Origin: Mucor racemosus
Taxonomy: Eukaryota; Mucoromycota; Mucoromycetes; Mucorales; Mucoraceae
NCBI GenBank assembly: GCA_027405735.1
Contig: JAPEHQ010000007.1
Coordinates: 620,001 to 684,000, forward strand
Length of the DNA stretch: 64,000 nt
Reading direction: 5' to 3'
The stretch's first letter is position 1, and each line of letters starts with the position of its first letter. This document shows positions 3,357 to 42,708 of this stretch, in pieces. A model generated the notes under the pieces. That model did no database searches, was not told the DNA's origin, and saw only the letters and a list, made by a program, of their open reading frames with translations. The translations under genes were made by a program, and so were the position numbers.

Positions 3357-4094
3357 ACTTGCCAATACAGTCGGAACACCTGATGTATTAATCTAAGCAA
3401 TTGAGGATGCGAAATCTCGAAACGACGAACTCAAAAGAAAAAGTGATTCAGACATAGCCGGTTCCTTGTGGAACAGAAAAACAACAGCAGCCAGTACTAA
3501 CGCCTCGTCCAGCTGCTGTAACAATAATGATCTATACACTATGAAGACAAATCTCTTAATTCTCTTAATTGTGCCCTAACGATCGCAATCGAGCTGTGCG
3601 AGCATAAGCAAGCGAGCGAGCCCTATGCTTGGGCTCGCTTGAATTGCACTTTTTTCAGGTTATTACTTGCTTTGGCTTGCTTGATTAAATTTTTTTAGCA
3701 ATTTCCTGCTTGGCGCTTGACGAAAACATTGAAAGCTTGCTTGTATGCTTGCTCGAATTGTTTCAAATTGAAATAGGCTTGATTGCGTGTAAACCTGCTT
3801 GCTTTCCTGCTTTCAAATAAAGTAAGTAAGCATATAATAACACAAGGAAAATGTATTCAATTTACGTAATTTTAACTTTAAGAATGTCAAAATTTATCAC
3901 ACTTTGAACCAATATCACACTGAAAATATATAGCATAATGCTTGCGCTTGCATTCGGATTTGCTCGCTTGCTTGTACGCTCGTGTTCGACTTGCTTGACT
4001 TTTTGAAAAATTAGATAATGCCTGATTTATGCTTGCTTGCTTGCTTTCAAAACTGAAAATGCTCAATATAAAACTGCTCGACGACGCGTTGCTT

Positions 4095-13534: not shown

Positions 13535-13683
13535 TAGCGTTCGCAAAATGCCCGAGCCCAAGCGAGCGCAAGCAGTTTCAGCAAGCATTTGCTGAATCTA
13601 AAATATTTGAAAATTACTCAAGCAAGCCCGAGCCTAAGCAAAGCTTCGTCGAGCAGTTTTATATCGAGCATTTTCAGTTTTGA

Positions 13684-13732
<49 letters not shown>
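13684..13732. repeat. (CAAG)n microsatellite
   Basis: About twelve tetranucleotide units, an expansion of the AAGCAAGC motif that is dispersed through hAT-1 ends. Confidence 0.9.
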
Positions 13733-13733
<1 letters not shown>

Positions 13734-14534
13734 TCTCTAATTTTTCAAAAAGTCAAGCAAGTCGAACACGAGCGTACAAGCAAGCGAGCAAATTCGAGTG
13801 CAAGTGCAAGCATTGCACTATATATTTTCAGCCTGATATTGGTTCAAGATGCGATGCGTTTTGTCATTTTTAAAGCTAAAATTACGTAAATTGAATAAAT
13901 TTTCCATGTGCCACCACATGCTTGCTTACTTGATTTGAAAGCTGGCAAGCACGTAGGTTTCCATAACACTGGCAACAATCAGAATTCACGAACCAATTAA
14001 ATGGGAATGTTTAACGGCAGCCGAGCATTCGATCATACGATCTAAAAGTTTGTTTGTAAATCGATCAATCGCAGGAGCTCTAGTTATTTATTCGACTTTG
14101 TATTTAGATTGCGAATTTCAATTCAATTACGGATTATCAAATATTTGTAGCAAAAACGCAATCTCAAATGTTCAAGCTTGTGGTTGGATACGCGATCAGA
14201 TATTCGATATATATATTTGAATATCAGTCGACCCCTGCATATTTGCATTAATTTTAACATAATGAATTAGGTCCATCATCTACCTCCAAGTAAACGCATA
14301 AAAGATGTTTGGTATGTCATGAAGTAATAACATTTAATATGCCTAATGAGTATATATTCACATGTAAAATTAAAAAAACTAAAATCCATATAGCTCATCA
14401 AACCATCAATGTAAAAAAACCGTTTTTATATTAATAGTTTAGATACTGCCAACTGATTATTGTGTCTTGGGGGTATTCATTTGGCCCCCTTTTGTGAGCT
14501 ATAATTACGCTATCATACTAAAGACCTGAAATAT

Positions 14535-22833: not shown

Positions 22834-23327
22834 TAGCGATCGAAATCGAGCAGTGCGAGTATAAGCAGGCGAACGAGCCCTATACTTGGGCTCTCTTGAA
22901 TTACGCTTTTTCAGAGTATTACTTGCTTGGTTAATTATTTTTTAGGAACTTCCTGCTTGGCGCTCGATAAAAACATTGAAAGCTTGCTTGTATGCTTGCT
23001 CAAAATGCTTCAAATTGAAATAGGCTTGCTTGCCAACTTTCAAATCAAGTAAGCAAGCATGTGGTGGCGCAGGGAAAATTTATTCAGTTTACGTAATTTT
23101 AGCTTTAAAAATGACAAAACGCATCACATCTTGAACCAATATCAGGCTAAAAATATATAGTACAATGCTTGCTTGCCTTCAAAACTGAAAATGCTCAATA
23201 TAAAACTGCTCGACGAAGCGTTGCTTAGGCTCTGGCTTGCTTGAATAATTTTCAGATATTTTAGACTCAGCAAATGCTTGCTGAAACTGCTTGCGCTCGC
23301 TTGGGCTCGGTCATTTTGCGAACGCTA
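22834..23327 (+). mobile_element. hAT-1 MITE (494 bp)
   Basis: Starts TAGCGATCGAAATCGAGC and ends TTTGCGAACGCTA, like the autonomous element 136 bp downstream and in the same orientation. No coding capacity. The flanks ATGCCTGG and ATTGAAGA are not a duplication. It may have truncated both the DIRS remnant on its left and the solo LTR on its right. Confidence 0.75.
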
Positions 23328-24084: not shown

Positions 24085-24530
24085 ATATCCAGAAAAGTAC
24101 CAAACAAAGAAACAATAAGACTACATGAAACCAGAAAATATCAAGCAAAGAAACAATAAGGCGACATGAATCTAGAAAAGTATCCAGCAAAGAAAAGACA
24201 AGGCGACATGAATCTAGAAAAACACCAAGCAAAGAAAAAACAAGGCGACATGAATCTAGAAAAGCACCAAGCAAAGAAACAATAAAACAACATGAATCCA
24301 GAAAAGTTTCAAGCAAAGAAACAATAAGGCTATATGAATCTAGAAAAGTGTCCAGCAAAAAAAACAAGGCGACATGAAACCAGAAAAGTATCCAGCAAAG
24401 AAAAGACAAGGCGACATGAATCTAGAAAAACGCCAAGCAAAGAAAAAACAAAGCGACATAAATCTAGAAAAGCACCAAGCAAAGAAACAGTAAAATAGCA
24501 TGAATCCAGAAAAGTACCAAGCAAAGAAAT
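24085..24530. repeat. ~42-bp minisatellite in hAT-1
   Basis: About ten units containing GACATGAATCTAGAAAAG and CAGCAAAGAAA. It lies downstream of the transposase stop. Leu/Phe-rich ORFs crossing it on the minus strand are repeat artefacts. Confidence 0.85.
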
Positions 24531-24573
24531 ACCAAGATATTTGGGGAAGCAGGATAGAAAGGGAGAGAAAGAT

Positions 24574-24576
<3 letters not shown>

Positions 24577-24656
<80 letters not shown>

Positions 24657-36511: not shown

Positions 36512-36513
36512 TA

Positions 36514-36664
36514 CAGCTTTTGCCAAAATGATGTCGCACTAAAAAAATTTAAGTTGTCGCACAATTTGAAAAAAAGATGACGCATAAAAAAAATAAAGAG
36601 TGTCGCACATTTTAAAAAAAAAGTGTCGCACTTATAAAATTTAAAGTGTCGCATCGATGAAATC
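36514..36664 (+). repeat. Left terminal region with GTCGCA repeats
   Basis: About six copies of GTCGCA(C/T) or GACGCAT spaced roughly 25-30 bp apart by T/A-rich DNA. The mirror copy is 42523-42673. Regular spacing suggests transposase-binding sites (inference). Confidence 0.6.
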
Positions 36665-36696
36665 AAAGTCTTTACTTAAGAAATTCTTATTTTGTT

Positions 36697-38016
36697 ATGG
36701 ACTATTCATTCTATTTCGAAGACGGTCAAGGGAATATAGTAAATGAGAATGGAGAAGATCCGATGGAGATTGCGGAAGATGAAGATCCTTTCAAACTGGA
36801 GGAGTTGACTTCATATACTGAGTATATAGCTCTCAGGAACACGCTGCGTGATTCCGCAATGGAACAAGAGCTACCCAAAGAAAAAAAGAAAAGAGGGGAA
36901 AAGAAAATATGCGACGACGAAACAAGCAAAAAAGTCAAAGGAGTTCGAGTTGACAACGACATTAAAGCTCGCGCTGTACATTTAGTTGATATACACCCGT
37001 AAAATAGTGCTAGAGCAGTTGCCCTAAGTCTTAAACTGGAGCCAAGAACTGTTCAACGGTGGTATAAAACTTGGAAAGAAGATCCAGACTCACTTTTTAA
37101 GACTATTGGTCGACCGAGAATCATCGAACCTGAGGGAGAGTTAGCAGAGGCAACGAGAAATGTTGTGGCAGATTTGTATTTCAAACAGCCTACCTCCACA
37201 ATTGATCAGCTTATGGACAAATTAAATAGCAGTTTCAGTGAGCTAACTATTTCCAAAAGAACACTGTATCGATATATGGCTGATCTTTGGATTTTCTCTT
37301 TGAAAAGAGTTCAATTGGAGCCAGAGGAGAGAAATGCCCCTGAAAGAATACAAGCGAGAAAAGTGTGGGTAGAGGAAGCTTTAGCAATGGGTGTGGATTA
37401 CATGAACAACTGTGTTTTTATTGATGAGGCTGGCTTCAATGCTAACTTGAGGAGAACCCAAGGTTGGGTGCCTGTTGGAGAGACCCCTATAGTAAAAGTG
37501 CTCACGGCTAGAGCCAATTCAATTTCAATTTTGGGTGCTACCTACCCGAAAGGTCTTATCAAAATTTGCTTGAGAAAGCCAATACCCCCAGAAAGTTCCA
37601 AGAAAAGAAAGCTAGCAGGAGGTGTGAAGAAATCGTCAAAGGGAACAACTACCAATCATTATGTCAATTTTGTCAAAGATATTTTGAATGAGATGGACAG
37701 ATTTCCTGAGATGAAGGGATTTTTCTTGATCATGGATAATGCGCCTATACACACGAATAAGCTACTTAGAAGTATTATTGAAGATCGAGGTTACAGGTGC
37801 CTTTATTTACCACCTTATTCGCCCGAACTAAATCCTATCGAGCAATTCTGGTCGGTTGTTAAGAGTGGTGTAAAGAGAGAGTTCGTCCTTAAAAAAGATA
37901 CTCTTCCTCAGATCATAGCGGATGCTAGTAACAAAGTCCTCGAGAGCTCCTTCGAAGGTTTTGCTCGCCATTCTGTTAAACGCTTTGCTGATTGTCTTCA
38001 ATGCCTTCCAATTTAA
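36697..38016 (+). pseudogene. DDE transposase (IS630/Tc1/mariner superfamily), left arm
   Basis: One reading frame of 440 codons with an in-frame TAA at 37000-37002 (codon 102). Acidic N-terminus, Lys-rich stretch, then helix-turn-helix (SARAVALSLKLEP, TVQRWYKTW), GRPRI linker, and DDE core: VFIDEAGFN (first Asp), FLIMDNAPIH (second Asp), PYSPELNPIEQFW (third acidic residue). The stop falls just before the DNA-binding helices. One base change from GAA would explain it. Translation from a downstream start would keep the catalytic domain but lose DNA binding. Confidence 0.88.
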
Positions 38017-38171
38017 TAAATAGCTAACAACTTTCCTTATGTAAAATTATGCGGCAATATAAATTTCATACTGTGCTTCCAGTCTCAATTTACCGAATGT
38101 CTGAAAAATCCGCCCACTTTTTTGAAAAAAATTGGCCAATTGTGTGAAGTTGAATTTCCCAGTAATAAAAA

Positions 38172-38441
38172 TTAGTTTGCCCAAAATTTTGAATTAATTT
38201 GCCAAAGTTCTTCAAAATAATTTGCCCAGCTTTTACAAATAATTTGGCCAAACTTGTGGTTAAAAAAATGATATAAATATTCTTTATTCAAGCACTTGGG
38301 AAAAACATTGATAGAATGCTGGATAAAATTCTGTAAATGTTCAACGGGAACATCTTCACTGCCTTCTATAACTCTTATAGTAAGAGATTTAAGTGCGTTG
38401 ATATGATAAGTTGACAGCATAAGATGGTAATAAATGCACAA
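38172..38441 (-). CDS. 89-aa ORF in left arm, unknown
   Basis: Convergent with the transposase, 155 bp beyond its stop. Sequence includes ALKSLTIRVIEGSEDVP and a Trp/Phe-rich end. The copy in the other arm (40746-41015) encodes the same protein despite a synonymous C/T change. I do not recognise it. It may be a remnant C-terminus of another gene, or chance conservation through arm identity. Confidence 0.35.
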   Translation of the reverse strand: MCIYYHLMLSTYHINALKSLTIRVIEGSEDVPVEHLQNFIQHSINVFPKCLNKEYLYHFFNHKFGQIICKSWANYFEELWQINSKFWAN

Positions 38442-38529
38442 AAGGGCATAGAGATTTTTTTTTGGGGGGGCATAGAGATACGGTATTAAAATTTCTTTAA
38501 GAAGAGTGACTACGAATTACAAATTTTTT

Positions 38530-38980
38530 TTCATCCATCTTCCATCCATCTTCCATCCATCTTTCATTCATCTTTTCATCCATCTTCCATCCATCTTCCA
38601 TCCATCTTTTCATCCATCTTCCATCCATCTTCCATCCATCTTTTCATCCATCTTCCATCCATCTTCCATCCATCTTTCATTCATCTTTTCATCCATCTTC
38701 CATCCATCTTCCATCCATCTTTTCATCCATCTTCCATCCATCTTCCATCCATCTTTTCATCCATCTTCCATCCATCTTCCATCCATCTTTCATTCATCTT
38801 TTCATCCATCTTCCATCCATCTTCCATCCATCTTTTCATCCATCTTCCATCCATCTTCCATCCATCTTCCATCCATCTTTTCATCCATCTTCCATCCATC
38901 TTCCATCCATCTTCCATCCATCTTCCATCCATCTTCCATCCATCTTCCATCCATCTTCCATCCATCTTCCATCCATCTTT
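38530..38980. repeat. 11-bp minisatellite, left copy
   Basis: CATCCATCTTC-type units with periodic TTTCATTCATCTTTT variants, about 450 bp. The counterpart in the right arm (40434-40662) is the reverse complement and only about half as long. ORFs on both strands across it are artefacts. Confidence 0.93.
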
Positions 38981-38992
38981 GCCTTTACAAAA

Positions 38993-40104
38993 ATGCTCAC
39001 AAAAAACCAAGCCATTTGTATGTTTTTCTATGTAGACTATACTGAGGAAAACGTTAGAATTTATAAAAAAAAAATCGAGGAGTTTGAAGACTCTGAATTA
39101 TGTTGGAACATCAGAGAAGGAGAACCGGTTATGGTCATGAAAAATAGAATTAGAGGTGATCCATTGAATTATCGGAAGTATCCTGATGAAAGCCCCAAAG
39201 AAAAAAAAGTTGATAAGAGAGGAAGAGTCGAGTTAGTCACTTTAGCACAAGTTAAACAATTCATCAACGAAGTTTATTGTCCATGTCCACCAAAAAACGC
39301 TGAAGTTTATTTGAAAAGAAGGATTTCAACACAAGAGATTTATAATTTAGTCAAGACTTATACCACTGTTTTCCGTGAAAAAACATCACAGTCATTTGCA
39401 GCCTGGTGTCGCAGTAATAAGCTGAATTTTTTACTTGCAAAGGAAAAAAAATCCCAAAATGTCACCAGAGAATTATATATTCTGGAAGACGTTTATTACG
39501 GTAAACCAAGATGTGCATGACAGAATTGAAATGATCTCTAACGTATTTAATTATAGACGACCTTATCAATTCCATTTGCACTTACTTACCAAGGTACCAA
39601 GAATCACTAAAAACCCTCAAGAAAAATGGATATGAAATCATAGGTTATGCTCGAAAATCACCAACAGGTGAAGACGTTACTGGTAGAACAAGACTTTTAA
39701 AATCCATGATATCGAATTTGAAAGAGCGATCTTTTGCAACCAAAATATTCGTTTCACCTTGTAGCTGGGCCTCCACGCCACTTGAATCGCGTGACTTACA
39801 ACCTAATTCACAAGCTATTATGGACGATTTAGACGTTGATGGTAACACCCAAGATTTGCTTACCTACCTCAAATCTGTTAGTCATGATGTTTGCTTGGTT
39901 GCCATTGACTTTGCCGGTATAACAACAAGAAGCGAAGATATTATCAAGTTGGTTGAGACAAATCCCTCTTTAAAAAAGATTGCAATTGAAACCTTTGCCC
40001 AATGCAATGAGGTGTTTATTTTTAACACTGAGAAATTAGTTGAGGATAATGATTTATTACAAAAGTTTGAGGATAGAAATTATTTCATTCAAAGATCAAA
40101 ATAA
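38993..40104 (+). CDS. Serine-recombinase-like protein, spliced (351 aa)
   Basis: Exons 38993-39500 and 39557-40104 with a 56-nt intron (GTAAAC...TCTAAC...ATAG); 352 codons in phase. The C-terminal half holds GYARKSP at 199-205, with the Y-x-R-x-S spacing of the serine-recombinase active site (Ser204 as candidate nucleophile, Arg202), Arg213/Arg215, and [12 protein letters not shown] (283-294) where resolvases have the DRLxR region. The N-terminal ~170 residues ([12 protein letters not shown] onward, with CPCP and a Lys-rich helix) match no domain I know and include no MerR or zinc-ribbon DNA-binding module. ATG 38993 lies just after the minisatellite, so an upstream exon may have been lost. 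It is not the element's TA-targeting transposase, so it is cargo or a second mobility function. An alternative is an unrelated fold with a chance motif. Confidence 0.6.
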
Positions 40105-40153
40105 TTTAACAATTGCTAGAATATAAATTATTTTATTTAAAGATCAAAATAAA

Positions 40154-40360
40154 TTAACAATTGTCAGAATATAAATGATACCTTTCAGGATCATTACGGA
40201 TTCGCTCCATTGAGACCAAGATGGGTTGGTTTGGTTCGGTGTTGTAGCAAATTTCAACGTTACCAAAATCTTTAAGTCGATTGTTATATTTTTTAACGTT
40301 TTCTTCAGTATAGTCTACATAAAAAAACATGCATATTGCTAAATTTCTTGAGATTTTCAT
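40154..40360 (-). pseudogene. Truncated paralogue of the recombinase-like N-terminus
   Basis: 68 codons starting [20 protein letters not shown], clearly related to residues 1-65 of the 38993 gene (shared [20 protein letters not shown]) but diverged, and stopping before the rest. It lies in mirror orientation, where a palindrome would place the second copy. The contrast with the nearly identical arms is notable. Confidence 0.7.
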
Positions 40361-40433
40361 GACTAGGTAAACGCAGTATATTGTTTTTTTTTTCTTTTCC
40401 CGGTGCTTTTACTTCAGTTTGATCAAAATTGAA

Positions 40434-40662
40434 AGATGGATGAAAGATAGATGGAAGATGAATGAAAGATGGATGGAAGATGGATGGAAGATGGATGAAA
40501 AGATGGATGGAAGATGGATGGAAGATGGATGGAAGATGGATGAAAAGATGGATGGAAGATGGATGGAAGATGGATGAAAAGATGGATGGAAGATGGATGG
40601 AAGATGGATGAAAAGATGAATGAAAGATGGATGGAAGATGGATGGAAGATGGATGAAAAAAA
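40434..40662. repeat. 11-bp minisatellite, right copy
   Basis: GATGGATGGAA-type units, reverse complement of 38530-38980, about 230 bp. Confidence 0.93.
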
Positions 40663-40745
40663 ATTTGTAATTCGTAGTCACTCTTCTTAAAGAAATTTTA
40701 ATACCGTATCTCTATGCCCCCCCAAAAAAAAATCTCTATGCCCTT

Positions 40746-41015
40746 TTGTGCATTTATTACCATCTTATGCTGTCAACTTATCATATTAACGCACTTAAAT
40801 CTCTTACTATAAGAGTTATAGAAGGCAGTGAAGATGTTCCCGTTGAACATTTACAGAATTTTATCCAGCATTCTATCAATGTTTTTCCCAAGTGCTTGAA
40901 TAAAGAATATTTATATCATTTTTTTAACCACAAGTTTGGCCAAATTATTTGTAAAAGCTGGGCAAATTATTTTGAAGAACTTTGGCAAATTAATTCAAAA
41001 TTTTGGGCAAACTAA
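40746..41015 (+). CDS. 89-aa ORF in right arm, unknown
   Basis: Same protein as 38172-38441, one synonymous difference seen. See that entry for what can be said. Confidence 0.35.
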   Translation: MCIYYHLMLSTYHINALKSLTIRVIEGSEDVPVEHLQNFIQHSINVFPKCLNKEYLYHFFNHKFGQIICKSWANYFEELWQINSKFWAN

Positions 41016-41170
41016 TTTTTATTACTGGGAAATTCAACTTCACACAATTGGCCAATTTTTTTCAAAAAAGTGGGCGGATTTTTCAGACATTCGGTAAATT
41101 GAGACTGGAAGCACAGTATGAAATTTATATTGCCGCATAATTTTACATAAGGAAAGTTGTTAGCTATTTA

Positions 41171-42490
41171 TTAAATTGGAAGGCATTGAAGACAATCAGC
41201 AAAGCGTTTAACAGAATGGCGAGCAAAACCTTCGAAGGAGCTCTCGAGGACTTTGTTACTAGCATCCGCTATGATCTGAGGAAGAGTATCTTTTTTAAGG
41301 ACGAACTCTCTCTTTACACCACTCTTAACAACCGACCAGAATTGCTCGATAGGATTTAGTTCGGGCGAATAAGGTGGTAAATAAAGGCACCTGTAACCTC
41401 GATCTTCAATAATACTTCTAAGTAGCTTATTCGTGTGTATAGGCGCATTATCCATGATCAAGAAAAATCCCTTCATCTCAGGAAATCTGTCCATCTCATT
41501 CAAAATATCTTTGACAAAATTGACATAATGATTGGTAGTTGTTCCCTTTGACGATTTCTTCACACCTCCTGCTAGCTTTCTTTTCTTGGAACTTTCTGGG
41601 GGTATTGGCTTTCTCAAGCAAATTTTGATAAGACCTTTCGGGTAGGTAGCACCCAAAATTGAAATTGAATTGGCTCTAGCCGTGAGCACTTTTACTATAG
41701 GGGTCTCTCCAACAGGCACCCAACCTTGGGTTCTCCTCAAGTTAGCATTGAAGCCAGCCTCATCAATAAAAACACAGTTGTTCATGTAATCCACACCCAT
41801 TGCTAAAGCTTCCTCTACCCACACTTTTCTCGCTTGTATTCTTTCAGGGGCATTTCTCTCCTCTGGCTCCAATTGAACTCTTTTCAAAGAGAAAATCCAA
41901 AGATCAGCCATATATCGATACAGTGTTCTTTTGGAAATAGTTAGCTCACTGAAACTGCTATTTAATTTGTCCATAAGCTGATCAATTGTGGAGGTAGGCT
42001 GTTTGAAATACAAATCTGCCACAACATTTCTCGTTGCCTCTGCTAACTCTCCCTCAGGTTCGATGATTCTCGGTCGACCAATAGTCTTAAAAAGTGAGTC
42101 TGGATCTTCTTTCCAAGTTTTATACCACCGTTGAACAGTTCTTGGCTCCAGTTTAAGACTTAGGGCAACTGCTCTAGCACTATTTTACGGGTGTATATCA
42201 ACTAAATGTACAGCGCGAGCTTTAATGTCGTTGTCAACTCGAACTCCTTTGACTTTTTTGCTTGTTTCGTCGTCGCATATTTTCTTTTCCCCTCTTTTCT
42301 TTTTTTCTTTGGGTAGCTCTTGTTCCATTGCGGAATCACGCAGCGTGTTCCTGAGAGCTATATACTCAGTATATGAAGTCAACTCCTCCAGTTTGAAAGG
42401 ATCTTCATCTTCCGCAATCTCCATCGGATCTTCTCCATTCTCATTTACTATATTCCCTTGACCGTCTTCGAAATAGAATGAATAGTCCAT
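41171..42490 (-). pseudogene. DDE transposase, right arm
   Basis: Mirror copy of 36697-38016, with both open segments (42490-42185 and 42022-41171) encoding the same residues. The same in-frame stop lies at 42185-42187. Both copies therefore descend from one already mutated gene, or were homogenised afterwards. Confidence 0.88.
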
Positions 42491-42708
42491 AACAAAATAA
42501 GAATTTCTTAAGTAAAGACTTTGATTTCATCGATGCGACACTTTAAATTTTATAAGTGCGACACTTTTTTTTTAAAATGTGCGACACTCTTTATTTTTTT
42601 TATGCGTCATCTTTTTTTCAAATTGTGCGGCAACTTAAATTTTTTTAGTGCGACATCATTTTGGCAAAAGCTGTATATAAAGAACATTTTTATTGATACA
42701 TGATATTA

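Follow-up and report, generated by a model that had tools for sequence, protein, structure and literature searches.

Tc1/mariner transposons (IS630-Tc1-mariner) are flanked by TA, have inverted terminal repeats and encode a DDE_3 transposase of the DD34E type. A second, non-DDE protein can reside in such elements: as described in PMC3627910, Fanzor1 occurs in several types of TA-flanked Mariner elements, with or without a transposase, including elements from the fungal order considered here. In the IS607 family, the serine transposase TnpA binds helically phased direct repeats through its N-terminal winged helix and assembles the ends (PMC6188088, PMC4058570). A 64,000-nt stretch of the Mucor racemosus genome (contig JAPEHQ010000007.1, positions 620,001 to 684,000; hereafter the window, whose own numbering is used below), taken from an assembly of 53.2 Mb in 54 contigs, contains a locus with features of both. 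Outer ends of Tc1/mariner type (36514-42673) surround an inner element (38071-41116), also TA-flanked, whose inverted ends differ from theirs, and at the centre lies a gene for a 351-aa protein whose family combines features of IS607 TnpA and of Fanzor1-bearing elements. We read the locus, with about even confidence, as a nested transposon: a TA-flanked palindrome of Tc1/mariner type holds a second TA-flanked element, whose protein, predicted to have a serine-recombinase fold, likely binds tandem arrays and helps to pair the ends.

The outer element shares TA, inverted repeats and a DD34E transposase with Tc1/mariner elements, but it is palindromic and contains two mirror transposases as well as the nested element. 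Both ends consist of CAGCTTTTGCC, bordered on the left by a TA (36512..36513) and on the right by its partner (42674..42675); the TA comprises two bases only, and the sequences beyond the pair are unrelated (31/100 positions match). The left terminal inverted repeat (type A, 36514..36655, plus strand) includes TGTCGCA repeats spaced 23 bp and is mirrored by the right one (42532..42673, minus strand). The inverted arms (36512-38722 and 40465-42675) are 2211 nt each with four mismatches (36557, 38400, 38677, 38681), of which two fall in the 1994 nt, TA included, outside the tandem arrays. The centre between them, 1.7 kb, is unique. Each arm carries a transposase (36697..38016, plus strand; 41171..42490, minus strand), recognized from open reading frames and a DDE_3 profile match (E 3.6e-27 for the longer piece), with 34 residues from the second D to the E. 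Both copies are disrupted by an identical stop codon at mirrored positions (37000-37002 and 42185-42187). For a possible N-terminal helix-turn-helix there is a weak match to HTH_32 (E 5e-4, below its cut-off). An earlier reading of the same DNA (the sequence-only reading) had described TA-flanked terminal repeats, a near-perfect palindrome and Tc1/mariner-type ends, all of which are borne out. Its near-identity of the arms also stands, at a greater length than the 1992 bp it gave, which with the TA make up the 1994 nt outside the arrays, as does a transposase in each arm, to which the shared stop must now be added. Elsewhere in the window there are four inverted pairs (at least 100 nt, within 10 kb), none of which exceeds 240 nt in length or 95% complementarity; this excludes a chance origin of the palindrome, and a simple repeat was likewise rejected as its cause.

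Within each arm a second TA followed by CTGTGCTTCCAG delimits the inner element. Its TAs lie at 38069..38070 and 41117..41118, and its terminal inverted repeats, termed type B, at 38071..38505 (plus strand) and 40682..41116 (minus strand), the right repeat matching the left. Inside these ends, tandem-repeat analysis finds an 11-bp array of 39.9 copies (38532..38979, plus strand), which stops 14 bp before the gene start, and another of 19.9 copies (40433..40655, minus strand). Ends related to type B occur at 18 other loci and ends related to type A at 15. At none of these 18 does a listed DDE_3 match lie within 2 kb, where the listing, here and below, covers the 150 of 369 candidates that were scored. 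The sequence-only reading, which had noted neither the inner ends nor the arrays nor a convergent 68-aa frame, proposed that an inverted-dimer or foldback derivative had captured, or stably pairs with, a second recombination enzyme. The capture does not hold, and capture by the outer element alone was rejected, as the gene belongs to an inner element that has TA-flanked ends of its own, of a kind found elsewhere in this genome without a detected transposase. The overall layout recalls the Foldback elements of Drosophila, in which long inverted repeats with short tandem repeats also surround a coding loop; their proteins are different, and their target duplications are longer than TA.

The central gene (38993..40104, plus strand; exons 38993-39500 and 39557-40104) is predicted from frames and homologues to contain a GT...AG intron at 39501-39556. 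That the gene is spliced and has a GYARKSP motif was correctly recognized earlier. Its 351-aa product has an N domain, a middle part that weakly matches a winged helix, and a C-terminal domain with a putative serine-recombinase fold: the predicted structure of a homologue matches the catalytic-domain fold of serine recombinases. In the family alignment the Y-x-R-x-S motif is nearly invariant (Y 31/31, R 30/30, S 28/30), and Arg 250 and Asp 289 are conserved. In contrast, the two expected active-site arginines equivalent to R68/R71 are absent from the whole family, with no Arg at positions 290/293 in 31 sequences nor, in the other alignment register, at 264/267 in 32. The earlier description of a serine-recombinase-like gene thus stands for the fold and the motif and not for these arginines. 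Their absence, the different N-terminal domain and a solo copy of that domain also set the family apart from IS607 TnpA, while the protein is unrelated to Fanzor1, a TnpB-like nuclease. Homologues number 38 in one search and 65 in another, metagenome entries being without organism name. Those with names belong to what we take to be Mucorales or Umbelopsis, the closest being from Benjaminiella poitrasii (97%), and the gene family is conserved across many Mucorales (up to 81% identity). A predicted Rhizopus arrhizus protein joins the C-terminal half of the family to DDE_3-like sequence (26.1 bits, below the Pfam cut-off); the joined protein is possibly the product of a gene-model fusion.

Like IS607 elements, the present family has phased direct repeats close to its ends: 7/8 independent gene starts (all but L047 among the window, L044, L047, the L050 group, L058, L060, L067 and L068) have a tandem array with a score of at least 60 and its near end no more than 130 bp away. 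This threshold was set after the scores had been seen, with L044 and L060 just at it; at a score of at least 85 the count is 5/8. No array satisfying both limits lies at the L047 gene start. For comparison, stretches of 600 nt drawn at random, with overlap, from the rest of the window have an array within 200 bp in 58/1500 cases (33/1500 at the higher score), and the starts of solo genes in only 2/7. The unit length varies between elements: 11 bp (window, L044, L058), 12 bp (L060, L067), 20 bp (L050 group) and 23 bp (L068). In the gene model of Rhizopus stolonifer, the first 12 residues, immediately N-terminal of the conserved start, resemble the window's array read in the same frame, so that the 11-bp unit seems conserved at 74% protein identity.

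Convergent to the central gene is a 68-aa gene (40154..40360, minus strand), identified from open reading frames and sequence comparison, which amounts to another copy of the N domain. Among 10 loci readable past the gene end, a count that excludes fragments and the interrupted L060, seven have such a convergent solo domain: the window, L058, L067, L068, L047, L045, where the match is weak, and L048, where the frame has a stop. It was not found at L044, at the subtelomeric group L050-L053 (counted once) or at L069. The solo genes of the window and L058 are 72% identical in amino acids (dN 0.20, dS 1.19), and the full genes 71%, with synonymous sites saturated. Solo and gene within one element share less, 48% in the window and 55% in L058; the split between solo and gene therefore predates that between the two elements, and, judged from their sequences, both genes have retained their frame in both lineages. 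This divergence does not favor the view that the solo domain is simply a side effect of long repeats, yet gene and solo N domain have first halves that are the same in L067 and near-identical in L068.

A homologue query against the genome gave 83 matching stretches, which, without those of the window, represent 39 loci; many of these are fragments or contain stops, and many are known as positions only. TA-flanked relatives, which the sequence-only reading had proposed to look for in the whole assembly, thus exist at several loci. They support its guess that the gene is associated with TA-flanked elements, leaving aside the capture that it invoked. Multiple copies of identical architecture, for which it had proposed a check, were not found, as the genome search gave a single locus for the exact 6.2-kb arrangement; a multicopy palindromic family is rejected. 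The cleanest relative is L068 (C7, 2.72 Mb), with TA, repeats of 557-562 nt at 99%, the gene, a convergent solo gene and no listed DDE_3 match within 2 kb. At other loci the gene occurs with either type of end: type B ends surround a gene fragment at L061, type A-like ends surround one at L059, and at L058 and L060 a type A end adjoins the gene start, the right ends not being found. At L062, which is without the gene, a type A end lies to the right of a transposase, with type A subterminal repeats on the left. The family lies within 2 kb of type A ends at 3/15 loci and of type B ends at 1/18, while 0.34% of the genome lies so close. At C16:639k and C2:2.94 Mb, a listed DDE_3 match occurs no more than 3 kb from the family. 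L050-L053 (contigs C4, C23, C29 and C42) and the start of C1 hold near-identical gene copies near contig ends, and all four of the former have about 29 or more 20-bp units upstream of the gene. At L060:4431-6077, L067:5829-7510 and L058:5587-6914, further Tc1-like elements, TA-flanked as well but differing in their ends and having DDE-like matches, have inserted in or beside copies of the gene's element.

The gene is flanked by repeats of at least 290 nt at 92% or more in 5/17 family loci (window, L044, L061, L067, L068), a proportion among loci selected because they have the gene or type A ends rather than a genome-wide rate; among the other 12, eight were viewed over just 3.2 kb or so. At the five loci used for comparison (L062-L066), which do not have the gene, no inverted pair reaches 100 nt. 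At L044 on C3, a diverged copy of the gene is centred in a second palindrome, with 680 nt at one mismatch and a further 1000 nt at 100%. This palindrome (C3:1066900-1072717; L071, L044, L070, L072) has arms of at least 1680 nt, the outer ends not being reached, and each arm includes a piece of a Thi4-like gene, to which a fuller match exists on C23. Adjoining its inner part, a 130-nt stretch (L071:870-1000) has dozens of genome copies at 82-88%. In the window itself, dispersed inverted repeats at 3788-4027, 13535-13964 and 23014-23327 (106-240 nt, 86-95%) perhaps represent a short element family, and 24087-24656 consists of a 42-bp unit repeated 10.8 times in tandem, after which GA is repeated 47 times.

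The palindrome probably arose by insertion and repair. The inner element would have entered an outer element at a TA close to the latter's right end, and a break to the right of the inner element would then have been repaired with the left arm as template, the inverted ends guiding the repair. Such copying explains the palindrome best because each side of the gap could find an inverted partner to the left, and it is favored by the position of the inner border at a TA beside the apparent start of a right type A repeat. That border fits insertion into one element and so argues against an inverted dimer in which two outer elements came to enclose the inner one through aberrant transposition; a dimer would agree with the intact, TA-flanked outer ends and with one transposase per arm, but neither arm has an inner outer-type end of its own, and we regard this origin as distinctly unlikely. 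An assembly artefact is still harder to credit and appears extremely improbable. Chimeric long reads can yield near-identical arms, but here the centre is unique over 1.7 kb, the arms differ at four positions, the arrays are unequal (448 vs. 223 bp), and the limits of the palindrome coincide exactly with TA-flanked transposon ends whose flanks are unrelated.

As for its function, the 351-aa protein likely serves Tc1-like elements as a resident accessory and would act in end binding and end pairing, much like IS607 TnpA. In such a scheme, the winged-helix-like part would bind the helically phased repeats, the recombinase-fold domain would gather both ends into one complex, cutting would fall to a Tc1-type DDE transposase acting in cis or in trans, and assembly of the ends would be modulated by the solo N domain. 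The gene could instead have no role in transposition and persist as a passenger, copied along with Tc1-like elements driven in trans. Fragmentary or stop-bearing copies are indeed numerous and the gene is found with different end types, but conservation across many Mucorales, constraint on both gene and solo gene and the arrays retained at gene starts make this doubtful. It is unlikely, too, that the protein itself serves the inner element as transposase or invertase, acting at the inverted ends to create and maintain palindromes. The lack of a listed DDE_3 match near L068 and the type B ends would fit that case, although a partner transposase may have been missed among the unscored candidates. 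The conserved Y-x-R-x-S, Arg 250 and Asp 289, the long near-identical repeats at five loci and the homogenized first halves at L067 and L068 point the same way. However, neither alignment register places an Arg at the R68/R71 positions, TA flanks and CAGT-like ends are typical of DDE elements of the Tc1/mariner type, and transposons of serine recombinases are without the inverted repeats and target duplications (PMC3627910, PMC6188088) that, as inverted ends and TA, characterize the present elements and distinguish them from IS607. The widest version of this idea is equally improbable: a eukaryotic enzyme of serine-recombinase fold with a rebuilt active site would drive a new TA-flanked class, binding phased repeats at both ends, recombining the inverted ends and flipping or exchanging the centre, and would thereby build near-perfect palindromes that extend into neighboring DNA, other transposons and pieces of host genes included.

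Under the nested-transposon reading, a serine-recombinase-fold protein would join the extra proteins, such as Fanzor, that reside in eukaryotic cut-and-paste transposons, and the two-gene cassette with its cognate repeat arrays would allow direct tests of binding and end pairing. Should the formation of palindromes be driven by the protein, it would offer a handle on the origin of large inverted duplications in fungal genomes, and if its altered active site works, it would represent a new recombination chemistry.
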